NCBI GenBank assembly: GCA_018001695.1 | Contig: JAGNHN010000003.1 | Span: 1-64,000, forward strand | Origin: Lentimicrobiaceae bacterium | GTDB taxonomy: Bacteria; Bacteroidota; Bacteroidia; Bacteroidales; JAGNHN01 | Direction: 5' to 3' | Length of the DNA stretch: 64,000 nt | Part shown: positions 46,244-55,689 of the stretch, piece after piece | Position numbering within the stretch: position 1 is the first letter of the stretch | How the letters are laid out: each line of letters begins with the position of its first letter | The notes under the pieces: model-generated | The model's input: only the letters and a program-made list of their open reading frames with translations | Databases searched by the model: none | Told to the model about the DNA's origin: nothing | Position numbers and translations under genes: made by a program

Positions 46244-46561
46244 ATATCAGTCTTTTAGTGCGTTCGGCGCATTCCTACGGTCAGAAACACCTTCAATCCT
46301 TGTTATTATTATGAGCCAGACAGCATCATTGATTATTGAATAACAACTTGATAATGAAATTAATATCGATTTATTGTTTCATTCTTATCGCTGCCGGTCA
46401 GGTTCAGATCCGGTTTCAAGTAAGACACATTATCAAGGCATAGGGTTGTTCAATCTTCTGTAAGATATGAAATGTTTCACGATATTCTTCTATGTTTATT
46501 GCCATGCCTCTGTAGGATCTTACTAAAATGGATACTTTGGCCATTTTCGCCCTTGGTTTCA
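46244..46561. other. Intergenic region between the secreted-protein gene and the sigma-factor gene
   Basis: This is 318 bases of divergent upstream DNA with raised A+T and no gene that I can support. A minus-strand frame (46416-46763) runs mostly antisense to the sigma gene and is rejected. Apart from the -7 box for the sigma gene at its right edge, only a 4-bp hairpin (around 46259-46272) was seen. Confidence 0.45.
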
Positions 46562-46586: not shown

Positions 46587-47222
46587 TTGGACGAATCGAC
46601 AGCTCAATTGTGTGAAAGGATCCGTCAGGGTGACAAAAAGGCTTTTGAAGAGGTCTTCAGGACCTTCTATCCCCATTTGTGTGCCTATGCCACCGGCATT
46701 CTCGAAAATCCTGACCTGGCCGAGGAGGTTGTACAGGATGTCTTCTACCGCATCTGGCTTCAAAGAGAAAACCTGGATGTGCAGTTCTCACTGAAGGCAT
46801 ACTTGTTTAAATCCGTGCGCAATGGATGCATGAACCACCTGAAGCATCAGTCGGTTAAACAAACATATGAACATCATGCCCGCCTGGAACAGATGACAGG
46901 GCCGGATGTCGCCCCGGAATATGAATTTCTGGAACTTCAGGATTGTCTGAACAAAGCGGTCGAAAACCTGCCTCCCGAGCGGAAAAAGGTGTTTCAGCTG
47001 GTGAAAATGGAAGGCAGAAGATATAAGGAAGCTGCTGAAATACTGGGGGTATCGGTGAAAACAATTGAAAACCAAATGGGAAAAGCCATGATCGCCATAC
47101 GTGATGCCCTGTCAGCCTACCTTCCTGCCTGGTTATTACTATTGGCCGCTTTGTCATTATTTTTTTCATTGGGAATAGGTGAACAGGCTGTTTTGATTGT
47201 CTCATTAATAGTATGCTCATGA
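46587..47222 (+). CDS. FecI-like ECF sigma factor with hydrophobic C-terminal tail
   Basis: This 211-residue protein has region 2 (about residues 20-90, PDLAEEVVQDVFYRIW, then LFKSVRNGCMNHLKH) and region 4 (about 120-172, LPPERKKVFQLVKMEGRRYKE and GVSVKTIENQMGKAM). After region 4, residues 179-211 are strongly hydrophobic (LPAWLLLLAALSLFFSLG, then a second stretch), predicting membrane attachment. No ATG is available in frame before the upstream stop at about 46526, so TTG at 46587 is the start. It overlaps the FecR gene by 10 bases. It probably turns on this locus or other targets when its partner receives an envelope signal. Confidence 0.9.
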   Translation: MDESTAQLCERIRQGDKKAFEEVFRTFYPHLCAYATGILENPDLAEEVVQDVFYRIWLQRENLDVQFSLKAYLFKSVRNGCMNHLKHQSVKQTYEHHARLEQMTGPDVAPEYEFLELQDCLNKAVENLPPERKKVFQLVKMEGRRYKEAAEILGVSVKTIENQMGKAMIAIRDALSAYLPAWLLLLAALSLFFSLGIGEQAVLIVSLIVCS

Positions 47223-48241
47223 ACCCTGAAAATATCAATGCTGACCTGATCATCGCTTATCTGCAGGGAGAGCTGGATGATGCCATGGTGGAGGAGGTGG
47301 ATAACTGGGTCATGGCTTCGGAGGAGAACAGGAAGTATTTCGAATCCTTGCAGTATGCCTGGGAACAGAGCGAGATGGTCATGCCCTCACCGGCCCCGGT
47401 GGATACAGATATGGCATGGAACAATCTGGTAGCCCACATAGAAAAGGCCGAAGCCAAAGCCGACGCCCCTGTTAGGCAGATGGAGGTGCAGAAGCCTTCC
47501 ATTTTCAGGATATTAAAATATGCAGCAGCCTTGATCCCGCTGCTTGTAGCAGGCTATTTCCTTCTCCGGAACGACCAGCCTGAGGCAGGACAGACCCTGG
47601 CGTCTGCCGGCCAGGTGCTTCATGACACCCTCACCGATGGTACGCTCATACGCCTGAACAAACAGTCAACACTTGCATGGAAAGGGGATTACAACAAAAC
47701 GGCACGGAGGGTGGCGCTATCAGGAGAAGCCTATTTTGAAGTAAAACGTGATACAAGCCGTGAATTCTGGGTTGATACCCGGCATCTGCAGCTCAGGGTG
47801 GTTGGGACATCCTTCTATGTCAATGCCAATCCGGGAGATGAAACCACTGAGGTTTCTGTAACCTCAGGTAAGGTAAAGCTGTATGCCCTGCAAAGCTCGG
47901 TTGCCATTGATTCATTGCTCCTTGAAGCCGGGCAGAGAGGCCGCCTGAATCACAGCACAAAAAAACTGGAGCTGTTACCCGAACCGGATGCCAATCAATG
48001 GTTCTGGTCGACGCGAACCCTGGTCTTTGACAAGACACCCCTAGCAGAGGTGTTTGCGAAACTTGAGGAGGTATATCATGTTGAAATACAATGGACAAAC
48101 GATAGTCTGGCAAGCCTGCGCCTGACAACACGTTTTACAGAAATGCCTGTCGGGCAGGTGATGGAAATCATTGCTACTTCTTTCTCACTGACCATTCAAA
48201 ACAAGGATAGTTCCTATCAGGTGGATGCGGTACAACATTAA
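47213..48241 (+). CDS. FecR-family anti-sigma/sigma regulator
   Basis: This 342-residue protein has an N-terminal cytosolic domain (residues 1-98) that should bind the sigma factor. One membrane helix follows (about 101-118), then a periplasmic FecR domain (about 140-240, LTDGTLIRLNKQSTLAW and VALSGEAYFEVKRD). A C-terminal DUF4974 domain (about 260-335, RTLVFDKTPLAEVFAKLEEVYHV) is related to the STN fold. FecR passes an outer-membrane signal to the sigma factor. It overlaps the sigma gene by 10 bases and the STN-protein gene by 17, so all three are coupled. ATG 47219 is an alternative start. Confidence 0.93.
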   Translation: MLMNPENINADLIIAYLQGELDDAMVEEVDNWVMASEENRKYFESLQYAWEQSEMVMPSPAPVDTDMAWNNLVAHIEKAEAKADAPVRQMEVQKPSIFRILKYAAALIPLLVAGYFLLRNDQPEAGQTLASAGQVLHDTLTDGTLIRLNKQSTLAWKGDYNKTARRVALSGEAYFEVKRDTSREFWVDTRHLQLRVVGTSFYVNANPGDETTEVSVTSGKVKLYALQSSVAIDSLLLEAGQRGRLNHSTKKLELLPEPDANQWFWSTRTLVFDKTPLAEVFAKLEEVYHVEIQWTNDSLASLRLTTRFTEMPVGQVMEIIATSFSLTIQNKDSSYQVDAVQH

Positions 48242-49946
48242 ACTTCGGATCTGGATCATTTTCTCGCTCGTCATGACGGCAAGTCAGGGCATGGGACAAT
48301 CCAACCTACTGGATCTGAAGGTGCATCTTTCCCTCTATCATCTTACTTACTCCGAAATGCTTACCAGCATTGAAAATCGTTATGGGGTGTTGTTTTCGTA
48401 CAATGCGGATATTCTGCCCGTAGGACATGCCGATCTGGTGGTGCAGGGGGTCACCCTGGAGAAGGCGCTGACCGTGGCCTTTGGGCCAGGCTATTATTTC
48501 AAAGGAACCGGAACGCACATCATCATCTTAAAAAGGCGGCCTGCTGTTCCGCCCGAAAGCCCAAAGACCATCGCATTTACAGGAGCAGTCCGGGATGCGC
48601 GCAGCAAGGGCAGTGTTGCCCTGGCCACCGTTTATGATATGAGCAGTTTGCAATCCTGTCTGACGGATCAAGCGGGAGGCTTCAGGCTGGAAACCAAACC
48701 AAAAACCACGCAGATAGCATTGCGCATCAGCAAGCAGGGATATGAGGAAAAAGTATTGCTATTATATGCCGACCGGGATAGCCTGCTCAGCATCGAACTT
48801 ATCCCCGGAGAAGATGAACTACAGCTTCTGCCATTGCGCACTGCGGCTGAAATCCTGGCCACAAATCAACTTAACCCTGTGCTCATGCAGGGGCTAATCA
48901 GCCGACAGATTCAATTGAATAGCCTGAATGTCCAGGTTTTCGATAAGCGACCGGCGCAAATCTCGGTCTGGCCAAATATCGGCACCAACCTCCGCCTGGG
49001 AGGCGCCATCGTCAACCGTTTCTCGGTGAACCTGGTTGTCGGGTATGCTGCCGGAATGACAGGGTTTGAAATAGGTGGGCTCATAAATATGAACCGTTTG
49101 ATGGTCTCAGGAGTCCAGGTTGCGGGTCTGGCCAATCTGACCGGTAACACTGTAACAGGATTTCAGGCGGCCGGGGTAGTCAACCGAACGGGTGGAAAAA
49201 CAAGGGGTTGCCAGTTTGCCGGGATGTATAACCTGGCCAATGACAGCGTGAAAGGCATGCAACTGGCCGGCCTTGCCAATAGAGCCAATAAACGTATACA
49301 TGGACTTCAATTGGCAGGTATATATAATTATACGCAGGAGCCCAGTCCTGTTTTTCAGATATCAGGCGTGTTTAACAAGGCGCCTTCCGCCCGTTTTCAG
49401 TTTGGCGTGATCAATGTCGCGGACAGCGCGGATGGATTGCCATTCGGGCTGGTAAATGTGATCAGGGGCGGTTATTATCCGGCTGGTCTGAGCATGGATG
49501 AACTGGGCTTTGCTACGGTTTATGCCGGGAGTGGCAGCCGGCGTCTATACAGTATCGGAGGATTGACATTCCGCTTTACCGGACCGGATAAAGCCTACGG
49601 ATTTTCGATCGGTTTTGGGACCCGCCTGATACACAATAAGCATTGGGATTTCCACCTGGAGTTAACTTCCAGCCTGATCAGTGCGTATGGTGGGTTTGAT
49701 CAGCGAACCATGTCCCGTCTCATGCTCACACCTCAGATTTGTGTAAAGACATTTCCTGGGTGGTGCTTGATACTAGGACCTGTGGCTCAAACCTTTATCT
49801 CCGACGCACTGCATCCGGATGTGGATGCTTTCCTGGACAACATCTTGCCCTCCCATGCTTTGCATTATGCACCTTCTCAGACACGCTTTGATGCATGGGC
49901 CGGAATCATGGCCGGGTGGCGGTATAACTTCCCGAACCGGCCTTAG
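48225..49946 (+). CDS. STN / carboxypeptidase-regulatory / LA_2272-like outer-membrane protein
   Basis: This 573-residue protein has a signal peptide (about residues 1-25, ending QGMGQ) and an STN domain (about 30-105, LTYSEMLTSIENRYGVLFSY). A carboxypeptidase-D-like regulatory domain follows (about 115-200, FTGAVRDARSKGSVALATV). A C-terminal beta-rich part (about 225-573) contains about seven 20-residue repeats of the type G-x-Q-x-A-G-L-x-N, resembling LA_2272 surface repeats. It has no TonB plug. The STN domain would contact FecR in the periplasm, so this protein seems to take the place of the usual FecA/SusC receptor. It overlaps the FecR gene by 17 bases. Confidence 0.82.
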   Translation: MRYNIKLRIWIIFSLVMTASQGMGQSNLLDLKVHLSLYHLTYSEMLTSIENRYGVLFSYNADILPVGHADLVVQGVTLEKALTVAFGPGYYFKGTGTHIIILKRRPAVPPESPKTIAFTGAVRDARSKGSVALATVYDMSSLQSCLTDQAGGFRLETKPKTTQIALRISKQGYEEKVLLLYADRDSLLSIELIPGEDELQLLPLRTAAEILATNQLNPVLMQGLISRQIQLNSLNVQVFDKRPAQISVWPNIGTNLRLGGAIVNRFSVNLVVGYAAGMTGFEIGGLINMNRLMVSGVQVAGLANLTGNTVTGFQAAGVVNRTGGKTRGCQFAGMYNLANDSVKGMQLAGLANRANKRIHGLQLAGIYNYTQEPSPVFQISGVFNKAPSARFQFGVINVADSADGLPFGLVNVIRGGYYPAGLSMDELGFATVYAGSGSRRLYSIGGLTFRFTGPDKAYGFSIGFGTRLIHNKHWDFHLELTSSLISAYGGFDQRTMSRLMLTPQICVKTFPGWCLILGPVAQTFISDALHPDVDAFLDNILPSHALHYAPSQTRFDAWAGIMAGWRYNFPNRP

Positions 49947-50076: not shown

Positions 50077-50091
50077 AGGGTATCAAACCCT
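50077..50091. promoter_or_regulatory. Inverted repeat before the START-domain operon
   Basis: AGGGT and ACCCT form a 5-bp inverted repeat around ATCAA, with further T/A complementarity outside one mismatch. It lies directly upstream of the ribosome-binding site at 50094. It could be an operator or a leader hairpin; it is short and may be chance. Confidence 0.3.
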
Positions 50092-50093
50092 AA

Positions 50094-50099
50094 AAAGGA
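50094..50099 (+). promoter_or_regulatory. Ribosome-binding site (AAAGGA) of the START-domain gene
   Basis: AAAGGA lies 8 bases before the ATG at 50108 and decides for that start. Good Shine-Dalgarno sequences are rare in the rest of the window. Confidence 0.6.
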
Positions 50100-50107
50100 C
50101 AGATGTT

Positions 50108-50737
50108 ATGGACCCGAGAATGCTTTGGAATGCGAATAGGTTGATGGCCTTCGCACTTGCCTTCCTGCTTCAGCCTGTTGTGAGCGTTGCCGCGTGGAAG
50201 GAAGTCGGCAACCAGGATGGAATACATATTTATGAGCGATGGATTGAACTGCCGGACTATGGGCGGATCAGAGAGCGCAAAGGAGAGATGTTATTGAAAA
50301 GCACCCCGGCGCTTGCTTTGATGACGTTGCGTGACCCGGCCCGCAACAGGTCCTGGATGGATCAGGTGCAACAGTGTTATGTGTTGGGAAAACCGCAGCA
50401 GGACAGTTGGTACGCCTATACTTCCTTCTGTCTGCCCTGGCCCTTTGAAAACCGTGAAATGGTCACATTGTCCCGTTTGAAGTATGTGGATGATCGAACT
50501 GCCATCATCGAAATCAACAGTGCCCGCTATCCCGGCCTCCCATCAACCGGCTTCAAAAGGGTTGAAGGATATAATGCTGTCTGGAGAATAGAGGACAAGG
50601 GTAACAACCAGGTTCTGTTGTCACTGACCACCAGGTCCTACCTCCCTCCGGAATTTCCCCGGATTGTCCATGATCCCGTGATTCGTAATGTCCTCTTGCG
50701 TAATCTTCTGAGGTTGAAGCTCATCTTAAGCATTTAG
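50108..50737 (+). CDS. Secreted START/SRPBCC-domain protein
   Basis: This 209-residue protein has a signal peptide or anchor (about residues 10-29, ending VSVAA) and a START-like domain covering the rest. Recognisable parts are WKEVGNQDGIHIYERW at its start, the loop PENREMV-like phrase (here PWPFENREMVTLSRLKY, about 117-133), and a C-terminal helix VIRNVLLRNLLRLKLI. START domains hold a single lipid or sterol-like molecule in a hydrophobic cavity. With a signal peptide it would act in the periplasm. Its TAG stop lies inside the next gene's ribosome-binding site, so translation is coupled to the DUF2062-SDR gene. Confidence 0.8.
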   Translation: MDPRMLWNANRLMAFALAFLLQPVVSVAAWKEVGNQDGIHIYERWIELPDYGRIRERKGEMLLKSTPALALMTLRDPARNRSWMDQVQQCYVLGKPQQDSWYAYTSFCLPWPFENREMVTLSRLKYVDDRTAIIEINSARYPGLPSTGFKRVEGYNAVWRIEDKGNNQVLLSLTTRSYLPPEFPRIVHDPVIRNVLLRNLLRLKLILSI

Positions 50738-50743
50738 GAGGGG
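50736..50743 (+). promoter_or_regulatory. Strong ribosome-binding site (AGGAGGGG)
   Basis: AGGAGGGG lies 8 bases before ATG 50752 and overlaps the stop codon of the START-domain gene. It decides for ATG 50752 over GTG 50743, which is inside the site. Confidence 0.75.
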
Positions 50744-50751
50744 TGGTAAAC

Positions 50752-52059
50752 ATGAGAAAGCTAAGAGAAACCCTGCGCAAGAAGCTCGAACTGCTACAGG
50801 GAAACCCCAGGCGCATCGCGCGCAGCTTTGCCCTGGGTACTTTTATGGGTGTCACCCCCTTCATCGGTATGCAAATTTTGATCAGCGTGCTCTTGTCCTG
50901 GCTGCTGAACCTGAGCAAAGCCGCCGCCATTACCGGTGTTGTTAATACCAACTGGACCAAGGGCGTATTTCTGTATCCACTGAACTATAAACTGGGCGCC
51001 TTCCTGCTGGGCATGGATCCCTTGTTGCCCACTCCGGGTGGAATGAAGGATTTGGCCTTCCGGAACCTGGCAGAAGGAGGGTTGGACATTTTTACTGCAT
51101 TGTTGTTGGGAGGAATCCTCACCGGTTCATTGTTGGCGCTATTTTATTATCATCTGGTTATGAGATTACTGAGAAACGAGAAGCTACCTGAATGTACGGG
51201 AAAAACCCATGACCAATCTGATATTCAGCCCTATGCTCTGATTACAGGAGCCAGTCAGGGATTGGGTAAGGCCATGGCCCTTGAACTGGCCAAAAGAAAC
51301 CATCCCTTATTGCTGGTTTCCCTGAAAGATGAAGGGTTGCCGGCATTGTGCGAGCAACTCAGGACCGACCATGGCATTGATGCACAATATCTTGAAACAG
51401 ACCTTTCAGCCCGGGAGTCAGTGTACGAAGTGGCTGAATGGGTTTCGAAAAAATATCCCCTGTTTGCATTGATTAACAATGCAGGACTGGGAGGCACCCA
51501 GGCTTTTGACGCAGCCAGTCCGGAGTATGTGGATACCATCATCCAGGTCAATGTTCGCGCCACCTCTCTGCTGACACGTCTGCTGTTGCCAGAGTTAAAG
51601 AAGCAGAAGAAAGCGTATATCATGAATGTGGCCAGCATGGCCTCATTCAGTCCATTTGCCTATAAAACGGTATACCCCGCTTCCAAGGCGTTCGTTTATT
51701 CCTTTTCCAGAGGATTACATGAAGAGCTCAGGGGTAGTGGCGTTCATGTTTGTGTCATTCACCCGGGCCCCATGAAGACGAATGCGGATGTGTCATGGCG
51801 TATTGAAAAACAAGGTGTCTTTGGCAAAATGGGGTTGCTGTCTCCTGAAAAGACGGCCCACATTGCCATCAGGCAGATGCTGAAACATGATTCACTGGTT
51901 TTACCGGGCGTTTTTAATAAGATCAACTGGCTGTTTATGATGCTTATTCCCAATGCCTGGAAATTGCCCATCCTTTCACGGGTTGTTAAGAATGAGATAG
52001 TTCAACGTATTGGAAATCAGGTAACCCTAAATAGTTCTCCTGCTATTTATGGCCATTGA
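50752..52059 (+). CDS. DUF2062-SDR fusion: membrane domain plus short-chain dehydrogenase
   Basis: This 435-residue protein. Residues 1-150 form a DUF2062 membrane domain, with NPRRIARSFALGTFMGVTPF (about 18-37) and about three hydrophobic segments. Residues about 160-430 form a classical short-chain dehydrogenase: nucleotide loop ITGASQGLGKAM, LINNAGLGG (the NNAG motif), catalytic serine region NVASMASF, and Y-x3-K as YPASK (Tyr near 308). A perfect AGGAGG site supports ATG 50752. The enzyme part would sit at the cytoplasmic face of the membrane and reduce or oxidise a lipophilic alcohol or ketone. The substrate is unknown; flanking genes suggest a lipid. Confidence 0.85.
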   Translation: MRKLRETLRKKLELLQGNPRRIARSFALGTFMGVTPFIGMQILISVLLSWLLNLSKAAAITGVVNTNWTKGVFLYPLNYKLGAFLLGMDPLLPTPGGMKDLAFRNLAEGGLDIFTALLLGGILTGSLLALFYYHLVMRLLRNEKLPECTGKTHDQSDIQPYALITGASQGLGKAMALELAKRNHPLLLVSLKDEGLPALCEQLRTDHGIDAQYLETDLSARESVYEVAEWVSKKYPLFALINNAGLGGTQAFDAASPEYVDTIIQVNVRATSLLTRLLLPELKKQKKAYIMNVASMASFSPFAYKTVYPASKAFVYSFSRGLHEELRGSGVHVCVIHPGPMKTNADVSWRIEKQGVFGKMGLLSPEKTAHIAIRQMLKHDSLVLPGVFNKINWLFMMLIPNAWKLPILSRVVKNEIVQRIGNQVTLNSSPAIYGH

Positions 52060-52105
52060 AATTAACTGAGCTTTCAATGATAAGGGAAAACACGCATTTA
52101 AAAGG

Positions 52106-52112
52106 AAAGGAG
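52106..52112 (+). promoter_or_regulatory. Ribosome-binding site (AAAGGAG)
   Basis: AAAGGAG lies 8 bases before ATG 52121, a textbook spacing. It is the third good Shine-Dalgarno sequence in this operon. Confidence 0.7.
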
Positions 52113-52120
52113 AATAAGTA

Positions 52121-53134
52121 ATGAGGGTGTTGGTAAGCGGTGCAAATGGATTTTTGGCCGGGCATGTCATACATCGCCTTGTAAAAGAGGGCTATCTCGC
52201 AAGAGGCATGATGCGTGGTGGAGCCAGGGCGCCTGTGCTGGAGGGCCTTGAAATAGAGATTTTCCGGGGCGATATCACCCGTAATGAGCAGATATGTCAG
52301 GCTGTTGAGGGCTGTGATATGATTATTCATATTGCTGCAGATACACGCCAGTCGGGTAGGCATTGGAGGGATTATGAAGTCGTCAATATTCAGGCTACCA
52401 GGCAGTTGCTTGAGGCCGGGGCCGGCGCGGGTGTAAAGCGGTTTGTATATGTGAGTACAGCGAACACCATGGGTTATGGCAGTGCAGTTCATCCCGGAAC
52501 GGAAGACCTGCCACCCGACAAGGTATTTATGCGTTCTGGCTATGCCCATAGCAAGTGGCTGGCCGAACAGCAAGTGCAGTCATTTTCCAAACATCCGGTC
52601 ATGAAGACCCTGGTTGTTAATCCGGGCTTTATGATCGGCCCCATGGATCATCGTGCCGGATCAGGAAAGATCTTTAGCATGATCGAGCATAGAAGAATTG
52701 TATTTTATCCACCGGGCGGAAAAAGCTTTGTGGATGTAAGAGATGTTGCGCAGGCCACTGTAAATGCTTTAAAGTTAGGAGAGAGCGGGTCTCGCTATCT
52801 GCTCTCAGGCACAAATATGAGTTACCGTGATTTCTTCGGTCTTACAAATTCCCTTTCAGGAGGCTCGCGCATTCTCCTTCCTTTGCCTGCATGGACTTTA
52901 TACCTTGCAGGCATGGCCGGGAGTCTGATTTCCAGTATGGGATTCAGGTGTTCTCTTCACCTGAATAATGCTAAAATCTTGTGTCTGAGGAATTTCTACG
53001 ATCACAGCAAAGCGGTACGTGAACTGTCCATGCCGGTGACAGACATCCGGAAGACCATACAGGATGCCCTTGCCTGGAGGAAACCACGCGAAAACTACCT
53101 CCCGTCGTTTATGAATCGAATGGTGATCCCTTGA
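52121..53134 (+). CDS. NAD(P)-dependent epimerase/dehydratase, 3beta-HSD/HpnA-like
   Basis: This 337-residue protein is an extended SDR. The nucleotide-binding SGANGFLAGH lies at residues 6-15 (the third glycine of GxxGxxG is replaced by alanine). DITRNEQICQAVEGCDMIIHIAA follows near 51-73, the catalytic Y-x3-K is Y141/K145 (YAHSKWLAE), and PGFMIGPMDHRAGSGKI is near 168. The pattern is closest to the 3beta-hydroxysteroid dehydrogenase/dihydroflavonol reductase/HpnA group. It is the third gene of the START/SDR operon, 61 bases after the second. It probably acts on a hydroxylated lipid or isoprenoid; that is inference from family and neighbours. Confidence 0.87.
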   Translation: MRVLVSGANGFLAGHVIHRLVKEGYLARGMMRGGARAPVLEGLEIEIFRGDITRNEQICQAVEGCDMIIHIAADTRQSGRHWRDYEVVNIQATRQLLEAGAGAGVKRFVYVSTANTMGYGSAVHPGTEDLPPDKVFMRSGYAHSKWLAEQQVQSFSKHPVMKTLVVNPGFMIGPMDHRAGSGKIFSMIEHRRIVFYPPGGKSFVDVRDVAQATVNALKLGESGSRYLLSGTNMSYRDFFGLTNSLSGGSRILLPLPAWTLYLAGMAGSLISSMGFRCSLHLNNAKILCLRNFYDHSKAVRELSMPVTDIRKTIQDALAWRKPRENYLPSFMNRMVIP

Positions 53135-53411: not shown

Positions 53412-53756
53412 ATGACCAGCAATAAACCCAGAATTGTCAAGGACTACGATAAGCTCCCGGAAGAAATCGTGGCAAGGGTCAAACTGAACTATCCGGATGG
53501 ATTTGTCAACCACCTGATCAGATATACCAATAAGGAAGGTAAGTTTGTTTCTGCCCTGCCTTTTGAAACAGAAGATGTCTATTACCTGATCCGCATGACG
53601 GAATTGGAAGCACGTCAGATCATCGAGGATGATGAAGACTATGACGAAGATGGCATCCTTCGAGATGATTTTGCTGCCGATGAATTCGGTGACGAAGATG
53701 AGGATATCCTTAATCATCCTGAATATGAGGAAGATAATCAGGAAGAGGAGTATTAA
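53412..53756 (+). CDS. Small acidic protein of unknown function
   Basis: This 114-residue protein has a folded-looking N-terminal part (residues 1-71, with KLPEEIVARVKLNYPDGF and VSALPFETEDVYYLIRM) and an extremely acidic tail. Residues 72-114 are mostly Asp and Glu and end EEEY. A good promoter box precedes it and speA follows after 40 bases on the same strand. I recognise no named family. The tail could mimic nucleic acid or bind cations or polyamines; with speA next door the last idea is worth testing but is only inference. Confidence 0.72.
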   Translation: MTSNKPRIVKDYDKLPEEIVARVKLNYPDGFVNHLIRYTNKEGKFVSALPFETEDVYYLIRMTELEARQIIEDDEDYDEDGILRDDFAADEFGDEDEDILNHPEYEEDNQEEEY

Positions 53757-53796: not shown

Positions 53797-55689
53797 ATGA
53801 GAAAATGGCGCGTTGAGGACTCAGCCGAATTATATAACATCAGCGGATGGGGACTGCAATATTTTTCCATCAACGAAAAGGGACATGTGACGGTTACCCC
53901 CAGAAAGGGGAAGGCAGCGGTGGATCTGAAAGAATTATTGGATGAATTGTCTCTGAAGGACGTTTCAACCCCGGTCCTGCTGCGTTTCCCGGATATTCTG
54001 GACAGTCGCATCGAGCAGATGGAGAGTTGTTTCAGGACGGCATCCGAGGAATACGGGTATAAGGCACAGAATTTCACTGTCTATCCGATCAAAGTCAACC
54101 AGATGCGTCCGGTTGTCGAGGAGATCGTCAGCCATGGCAAAAAGTTCAACATCGGGCTCGAAGCCGGTTCCAAGCCGGAGCTGCATGCGGTAATTGCAAT
54201 CAACACCGACAACGAATCCCTGATCATCTGCAATGGTTACAAGGATGAGGACTATATCGAGCTGGCGCTTCTGGCACAGAAGATGGGCAGGCGGATCTTT
54301 CTCGTGGTGGAAAAGCTGAATGAACTGCGGCTGATTACACGTGTGGCTGCAAGGCTGAAGATCAAGCCCAACCTGGGTGTCCGCATCAAGCTCGCCAGTT
54401 CCGGCAGCGGAAAATGGGAGGAATCGGGTGGGGATATCAGTAAGTTTGGGCTCACCTCCAGTGAGTTGCTCGAAGGCCTGGATTTCCTTGAGAAGAACAA
54501 GATGAAAGATTGCCTGCGCCTCCTGCATTTTCATATTGGCAGCCAGGTCAATAAAATCCGCCGTATCAAAATCGCGCTGCGGGAGGCTTCCCAGTTTTAT
54601 GTACAACTGTACCAGCGTGGCTTTGGGGTTGATTTCGTCGATATCGGCGGTGGATTGGGCGTGGATTATGACGGTTCACGCTCTGCCAGCAGTGAGAGCA
54701 GTGTCAACTACACCATACAGGAATATGTCAACGACGCCATATTTACCATGGTTGACGCCAGCGACAAGAACAATATCCCCCATCCCAACATTATTACCGA
54801 GTCAGGCCGTTCACTTACCGCCCATCATTCAGTGTTGGTGTTTGAAGTGCTGGAATCCACCAGCTCCCCGAAATGGAAGGAAGATGAGGAGATCAGTCCC
54901 GACGACCACGAGCTTGTCCGGGAACTCTACGATGCCTGGGAAGCCCTGAACCAGCCCCGTATGCTCGAGATCTGGCACGATGCACAGCAGATCCGTGAAG
55001 AAGCCCTCGACCGCTTCAGCCTTGGGCTGCTCGACCTTCGTACAAGGGCTCAGATCGAACGCCTTTTTTGGTCTGTTGCCAGGGAAATACAGCAGATGAG
55101 TACCGAAATCAAGCATGTGCCGGATGAATTGCTCCAGCTTCCGAAGCTATTGTCTGATAAGTATTTCTGTAATTTTTCCCTGTTTCAGTCCCTGCCTGAT
55201 TCATGGGCTGTAGACCAGATCTTTCCCATCATCCCCATACACCGCCTGGATGAAAAACCCGAGCGTTCGGCGACCCTGCAGGATATTACCTGTGATTCGG
55301 ATGGAAAAATAGATCATTTCATTTCAACGCGTAACTTCTCGTATTATCTTCCTGTTCACACCATCAAGCCCAAGGAACCGTATTATATCGGCGTTTTCCT
55401 TGTGGGCGCTTATCAGGAGATCCTCGGCGATCTGCATAACCTCTTTGGTGATACCAATGCTGTCCATGTATCCGTTGACGATAAGGGTTATTACATCGAC
55501 CAGGTCATCGATGGGGAAACGGTTGCCGAAGTGCTTGATTATGTGCAGTTTAATGCCAAGAAGATGGTGCGCACGGTTGAAACCTGGGTGATGTCTTCGG
55601 TCAAGTCCGGGATTATTTCAGCAGAAGAAGGCAAGGAGTTTCTGTCAAATTACCGCTCCGGCCTCTACGGCTATACCTATCTGGAATAG
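53797..55689 (+). CDS. speA: Biosynthetic arginine decarboxylase
   Basis: This 630-residue PLP enzyme converts arginine to agmatine, the first step of polyamine synthesis by the agmatine route. The N-terminal SpeA pattern WRVEDSAELYNISGWGLQYFSI (quoted in part) leads to the PLP-lysine motif FTVYPIKVNQMRPVVEEI near residues 90-107. Then come GLEAGSKPEL, LHFHIGSQVN and DIGGGLGVDYDGS near 283-295, and the C-terminal YNTAV-type regulatory region. Length is normal for the family. It follows the acidic small-protein gene after 40 bases. The neighbouring arginase-like gene at 60467 lacks key metal ligands and is unlikely to be its agmatinase. Confidence 0.96.
   Translation: MRKWRVEDSAELYNISGWGLQYFSINEKGHVTVTPRKGKAAVDLKELLDELSLKDVSTPVLLRFPDILDSRIEQMESCFRTASEEYGYKAQNFTVYPIKVNQMRPVVEEIVSHGKKFNIGLEAGSKPELHAVIAINTDNESLIICNGYKDEDYIELALLAQKMGRRIFLVVEKLNELRLITRVAARLKIKPNLGVRIKLASSGSGKWEESGGDISKFGLTSSELLEGLDFLEKNKMKDCLRLLHFHIGSQVNKIRRIKIALREASQFYVQLYQRGFGVDFVDIGGGLGVDYDGSRSASSESSVNYTIQEYVNDAIFTMVDASDKNNIPHPNIITESGRSLTAHHSVLVFEVLESTSSPKWKEDEEISPDDHELVRELYDAWEALNQPRMLEIWHDAQQIREEALDRFSLGLLDLRTRAQIERLFWSVAREIQQMSTEIKHVPDELLQLPKLLSDKYFCNFSLFQSLPDSWAVDQIFPIIPIHRLDEKPERSATLQDITCDSDGKIDHFISTRNFSYYLPVHTIKPKEPYYIGVFLVGAYQEILGDLHNLFGDTNAVHVSVDDKGYYIDQVIDGETVAEVLDYVQFNAKKMVRTVETWVMSSVKSGIISAEEGKEFLSNYRSGLYGYTYLE

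Follow-up and report, generated by a model that had tools for sequence, protein, structure and literature searches.

A conserved START, DUF2062-SDR and HpnA-like gene cluster of Bacteroidota as a candidate module for membrane-lipid modification and transfer

What could bring together, in one bacterial gene cluster, a START-domain protein, a membrane-linked short-chain dehydrogenase (SDR) and a 3beta-HSD/HpnA-like enzyme, and where did such a cluster come from? The question was raised by a stretch of 64,000 nucleotides (hereafter the window), in which an earlier note had described three same-strand genes, each with a Shine-Dalgarno (SD) site 8 nt from its ATG, and had read them as an operon that modifies and moves a membrane lipid and may stem from an SD-dependent organism. 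Direct reading of the sequence confirmed the three genes and their sites, and the assigned START, DUF2062-SDR and 3beta-HSD-type families all scored over their Pfam cut-offs. The proposed extent was right as to the genes themselves but stopped short upstream, where the three same-strand genes at 46587-49946 are part of the module in relatives (Table 1).

Table 1 Features of the cluster and of the genes upstream of it, in window positions.
Feature	Position	Strand	Remarks
ECF sigma factor, Bacteroidetes type	46587..47222	+	TIGR02985 155 bits, over cut-off; start uncertain
FecR-type anti-sigma factor	47213..48241	+	Pfam FecR and FecR_C over cut-off
CarboxypepD_reg-like protein, C-terminal surface repeats	48225..49946	+	CarboxypepD_reg_2 weak, below cut-off
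SD-like site AAAGGA, START gene	50094..50099	+	8 nt to ATG 50108; duplex energy -5.5
START-domain protein, predicted to be exported	50108..50737	+	209 aa; hydrophobic N-terminal segment 12-30, START fold 26-209
SD-like site AGGAGGGG, DUF2062-SDR gene	50736..50743	+	8 nt to ATG 50752; best energy -11.3
DUF2062-SDR fusion	50752..52059	+	435 aa; membrane domain 8-142, classical short-chain dehydrogenase ~160-420
SD-like site AAAGGAG, HpnA-like gene	52106..52112	+	8 nt to ATG 52121; energy -9.0
HpnA/3beta-HSD-like extended SDR	52121..53134	+	337 aa; Pfam Epimerase/3Beta_HSD

The strength of the SD sites was expressed as the duplex energy to the anti-SD, at the first start for the START and HpnA-like genes and at its ATG for the DUF2062-SDR gene, with statistics covering the 64-kb window only. 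The site AGGAGGGG overlaps the TAG stop of the START gene. The claim that most other genes in the window lack such sites held when first starts were compared, where about 5 of the 46 other called genes reach -5.5, but weakened once any start within the first 25 codons was counted, where about 17 of the 46 do so. A perfect AGGAGG precedes one other window gene (2156). The three genes are thus genuinely enriched in SD sites, though only to a modest degree and by a comparison made post hoc.

The first product matched Pfam START (PF01852) with 25.3 bits (cut-off 22), and its AlphaFold2 model reached a pLDDT of 92.5. The model has the helix-grip fold: it superposed on the Xanthomonas START protein 3qsz with a Z of 22.3 and an rmsd of 2.0 over 174 residues, and on STARD4, StAR and CERT with Z of 19-20. 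Over residues 28-209 the protein therefore has the same fold as these bacterial and eukaryotic proteins, but it is only 13-21% identical to them, carries a hydrophobic segment at the N-terminus and is encoded beside two SDRs. The hydrophobic segment suggests that the protein is exported. START domains are also found as aromatase/cyclases.

In the second product, DUF2062 (PF09835; 95.1 bits, cut-off 27.4) is joined to an SDR (Pfam adh_short; 147.7 bits, cut-off 26.6). The hydrophobic segments of the DUF2062 domain cover residues 26-64 and 113-136, both ends of this membrane domain are basic, and the structural model (pLDDT 85.8) shows two folded parts joined by a linker of low confidence at 146-153. 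The SDR part is a classical one, with the TGASxGxG motif and N267, S295, Y308 and K312 invariant in an alignment with 15 relatives. Its nearest solved folds are SDRs, the lipid-associated HSD17B13 among them. Its top curated match, mycolate reductase (NF040690), gave 142.6 bits against a cut-off of 380, and 3-ketosphinganine reductase (KDSR, NF049977) gave 81.3 bits against 400. The SDR part shares the classical catalytic residues with mycolate/corynomycolate reductases (NF040690; Rv2509, CmrA), but it is fused to DUF2062 and has no mycolate-type condensation genes alongside.

DUF2062 and the SDR are fused in the window and at two other loci (L096 and L097), whereas the typical full module encodes them as separate genes. 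In the DUF2062 tree the window and L096 formed a clade (100/100) with L097 apart, and in the SDR tree a single clade of all three fused proteins was modestly rejected (AU p 0.027, by a test that presumes a group named beforehand). Judging from these trees, the fusion likely arose twice, in different branches, and such repeated fusion means that the two parts probably work together.

The third product matched Pfam Epimerase with 104.3 bits (cut-off 20.9) and 3Beta_HSD with 79.2 bits (cut-off 22). Y141 and K145 are invariant among the aligned relatives and S112 is nearly so; the glycine motif is GxxGxxA in the window protein and mostly GxxGxxG in relatives. Its extended-SDR similarity runs over the full length of HpnA and SdmB and over the N-terminal two thirds of OleD, but the scores stay below each curated cut-off, with 204.4 bits against 367.65 for HpnA (TIGR03466), 114.9 against 600 for the sterol demethylase SdmB (NF052578) and 85 against 580 for OleD (NF042422). 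In addition, the squalene-hopene cyclase model PF13243 found no match in the cluster's own genome (97.8% complete). The name HpnA-like therefore fails as a statement of function, and we dropped a hopanoid or sterol pathway. By sequence, the best solved relative is a putative oxidoreductase (3wj7), which we take to be an aldehyde reductase. By the curated cut-offs, neither dehydrogenase belongs to the named mycolate, HpnA, OleD, SdmB or KDSR families.

Mapping the three-gene order across genomes, a check that the earlier note had proposed, revealed a genuine conserved cluster and not scattered genes. A sample of 295 genomes of the order contains 28 other SDR places, and at about 20 of them an HpnA-like gene comes next on the strand of the SDR gene; START adjoins the SDR/HpnA-like pair in 7-8 of the 11 other genomes with this START. 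We also scanned GTDB with the SDR alignment, listing the best 80 loci and counting their neighbours by hand: an HpnA-like gene directly follows the SDR gene in about 64 of these 80, START is nearby in 14 and DUF2062 in 9. The typical full order is START, DUF2062 (as its own gene), SDR and HpnA-like, and species of Chryseobacterium and Alistipes are among the carriers of the SDR/HpnA-like pair. The tie of START to this pair is optional, because most SDR relatives are without START and START also occurs alone in other Bacteroidota. The neighbourhoods of the listed loci share no conserved gene for an acyltransferase, ketosynthase, ligase or cyclase next to the module. We found no report joining START with DUF2062 in the open literature; as far as that search shows, known families apparently stand here in a conserved, undescribed arrangement.

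The genes upstream are shared with the two relatives L096 and L046. The six-gene order of L096, from the MAG HGW-Bacteroidetes-6, is identical to that of the window, while in L046 the trio of ECF sigma factor, FecR and surface-repeat protein flanks the gene pair on the opposite side. Both relatives have a homologue of the ECF sigma factor in the same module, as a shared neighbour cluster, and in both the surface-repeat protein is conserved beside the module; its L046 homologue matches the LA_2272 surface repeat over the cut-off. This protein probably serves the FecR system as its outer-membrane sensor. The arrangement recalls FecI/FecR cell-surface signalling, but the window's trio stands beside lipid-type dehydrogenases and not a TonB-dependent receptor, and the C-terminal part of its surface protein shows surface repeats and no named receptor barrel. 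At other loci the regulators differ: among the matches listed, 27 loci have an AraC-like gene immediately upstream in the same orientation, and HisK and LytTR genes downstream, LuxR-type or Crp-like genes accompany others. Their position suggests that these adjacent genes control the module. The Bacteroidota -33/-7 promoter consensus matches once, at 46536 shortly upstream of the sigma gene, a frequency that chance would also give.

As to origin, the SD sites on all three genes, the absence of all three from G001, the only same-genus genome, and their patchy occurrence in the order would suit horizontal acquisition from a distant, SD-dependent organism, as the earlier note had supposed. A clean empty site in G001 cannot be drawn, with the flanking genes at unrelated places there. 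The remaining evidence points the other way. All of the best 80 SDR relatives listed from GTDB are Bacteroidota, and the START and DUF-SDR genes of the nearest relatives have no comparable SD sites; some HpnA-like and SDR genes elsewhere do have them. The GC of the genes (0.485-0.51), GC3 and codon use are like those of the window, so that the codon comparison suggested beforehand speaks against a foreign source. The suggested tree comparison gave the same answer, as the START, SDR and HpnA-like trees each join the window to one and the same pair of Bacteroidota genomes, namely L046 (G168, of the same order) and L096, with supports of 99/98, 95 and 92; in a smaller, careful SDR tree this group stands with the long-branch L144 at lower support. 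Only the SDR was scanned across GTDB, and START and HpnA-like proteins from outside Bacteroidota were sought among plasmids only, where the best matches had just 28% and 34% identity. We therefore consider a distant, SD-dependent source highly improbable; the data fit a history of inheritance or exchange among Bacteroidota and of patchy loss.

What the cluster does is less firmly indicated. We give about even chances to its being a regulated module for membrane-lipid modification and transfer. Such a role is plausible because of the START fold with its hydrophobic N-terminus, the membrane-fused SDR and dehydrogenase relatives that act on hydroxy or keto lipids; the earlier claim of a lipid-modifying operon survives to this extent, but the named lipid families fail their cut-offs. 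For both enzymes the closest curated models describe lipid enzymes, each scoring under its cut-off, while the lack of a conserved lipid-precursor biosynthesis gene beside the module counts against the role. In this scheme, DUF2062 would tether the SDR to the cytoplasmic membrane on its inner face, a placement suggested by the basic ends of the membrane domain and by the SDR's need for cytoplasmic NAD(P)H. There, one long-chain or isoprenoid lipid would be the substrate of both dehydrogenases: the SDR and the HpnA-like enzyme would together take a hydroxyl or keto group of it through two NAD(P)H-linked steps, which might amount to a two-step reduction or to the epimerisation of a hydroxyl. The START protein, if exported, would bind the product of these steps in the periplasm and shield or move it, and the window's ECF sigma/FecR/surface-repeat trio would turn the module on upon an outside signal.

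A bolder version, to which we lend only tentative credence, extends this to a Bacteroidota-wide, signal-controlled system for remodelling a membrane lipid: the DUF2062-anchored SDR and the HpnA-like enzyme would alter it, and the exported START protein would ferry the product across the periplasm. If true, it would be a bacterial counterpart of the eukaryotic lipid traffic that combines hydroxysteroid dehydrogenases with START proteins. To our knowledge, little is known of the function of bacterial START proteins or of DUF2062, and the module gives both a testable context of two dehydrogenases, an apparently twice-arisen fusion and regulator genes, with cultured carriers in Chryseobacterium, Mesonia and Flagellimonas.

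Small aldehydes and ketones are also substrates that SDR enzymes reduce, and the cluster could instead serve stress responses or detoxification, with the two SDRs reducing reactive aldehydes or ketones such as lipid-peroxidation products under the control of varying stress regulators, and START and DUF2062 as accessories delivering lipid-derived toxins to these enzymes. The variety of adjacent regulators, the kinship of the HpnA-like protein to 3wj7 and the lack of biosynthetic partner genes would agree with this, but small soluble substrates need neither START nor a membrane-fused SDR, and the nearest curated models are lipid reductases; we hold detoxification to be possible, though rather unlikely. 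A more specific proposal makes the SDR the 3-ketosphinganine or 3-ketocapnine reductase of Bacteroidota and START a CERT-like carrier. The ketolipid reductases described from Bacteroides (BT_0972; PMC9278070) and from Chryseobacterium and Alistipes (CG_KCR and AF_KCR; PMC11211663) are likewise divergent SDRs encoded apart from the first-step genes, a likeness drawn from the descriptions in the available parts of these papers. Species of Chryseobacterium and Alistipes carry the present pair too, and the START fold matches CERT. On the other hand, the window SDR has START, DUF2062 and HpnA-like partners, none of which is described for those enzymes in the same parts of the two papers, it falls far below the KDSR cut-off, and a second dehydrogenase would be superfluous for that step. 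Moreover, of the AOS-family genes that TIGR01825 picked out in the own genome, none exceeds a serine palmitoyltransferase cut-off: one of the two is a glycine C-acetyltransferase (687 bits, over the cut-off), and the other scores 293 bits against 640 for the CFB-type model. A sphingolipid pathway was therefore set aside, and we judge the ketolipid reductase reading improbable. 

Several further arrangements were seen around these families. GH57, glycosyltransferase and glycogen-debranching genes adjoin the HpnA-like or START gene at L046:11142-15827 and L075:4970-9836, in two families of the order; the glycogen genes beside the copies of G168 and G045, like the genus-wide neighbours in Chryseobacterium, resemble local synteny and were rejected as module parts. 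Most sampled members of family f136 (same phylum, different class) have tandem START gene pairs (L187-L193, L195, L197-L201, L203-L205 and L207), whose examined flanks contain neither an SDR nor an HpnA-like gene. In Flagellimonas/Allomuricauda (L163:4469-6415 and L148:4376-6322), the START gene that follows the SDR/HpnA-like pair is itself followed by a gene for a 649-aa protein, whose L163 copy matches PQQ_2/BamB-like repeats. A second SDR copy in G246 (L055, G246:C48, 8891-12047) is without an HpnA-like partner and lies near an FAD-dependent oxidoreductase with a Rieske domain. In the window, the interval that separates the module from the 630-aa gene at 53797 contains a gene (53412-53756) for a small acidic protein of 114 aa, which matches neither Pfam nor NCBIfam; the counterparts of these two genes in G001 are on different contigs. 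At L074, L080, L070 and L144, the HpnA-like gene is adjoined by a gene for an Rce1-like membrane protein of the CAAX protease family.
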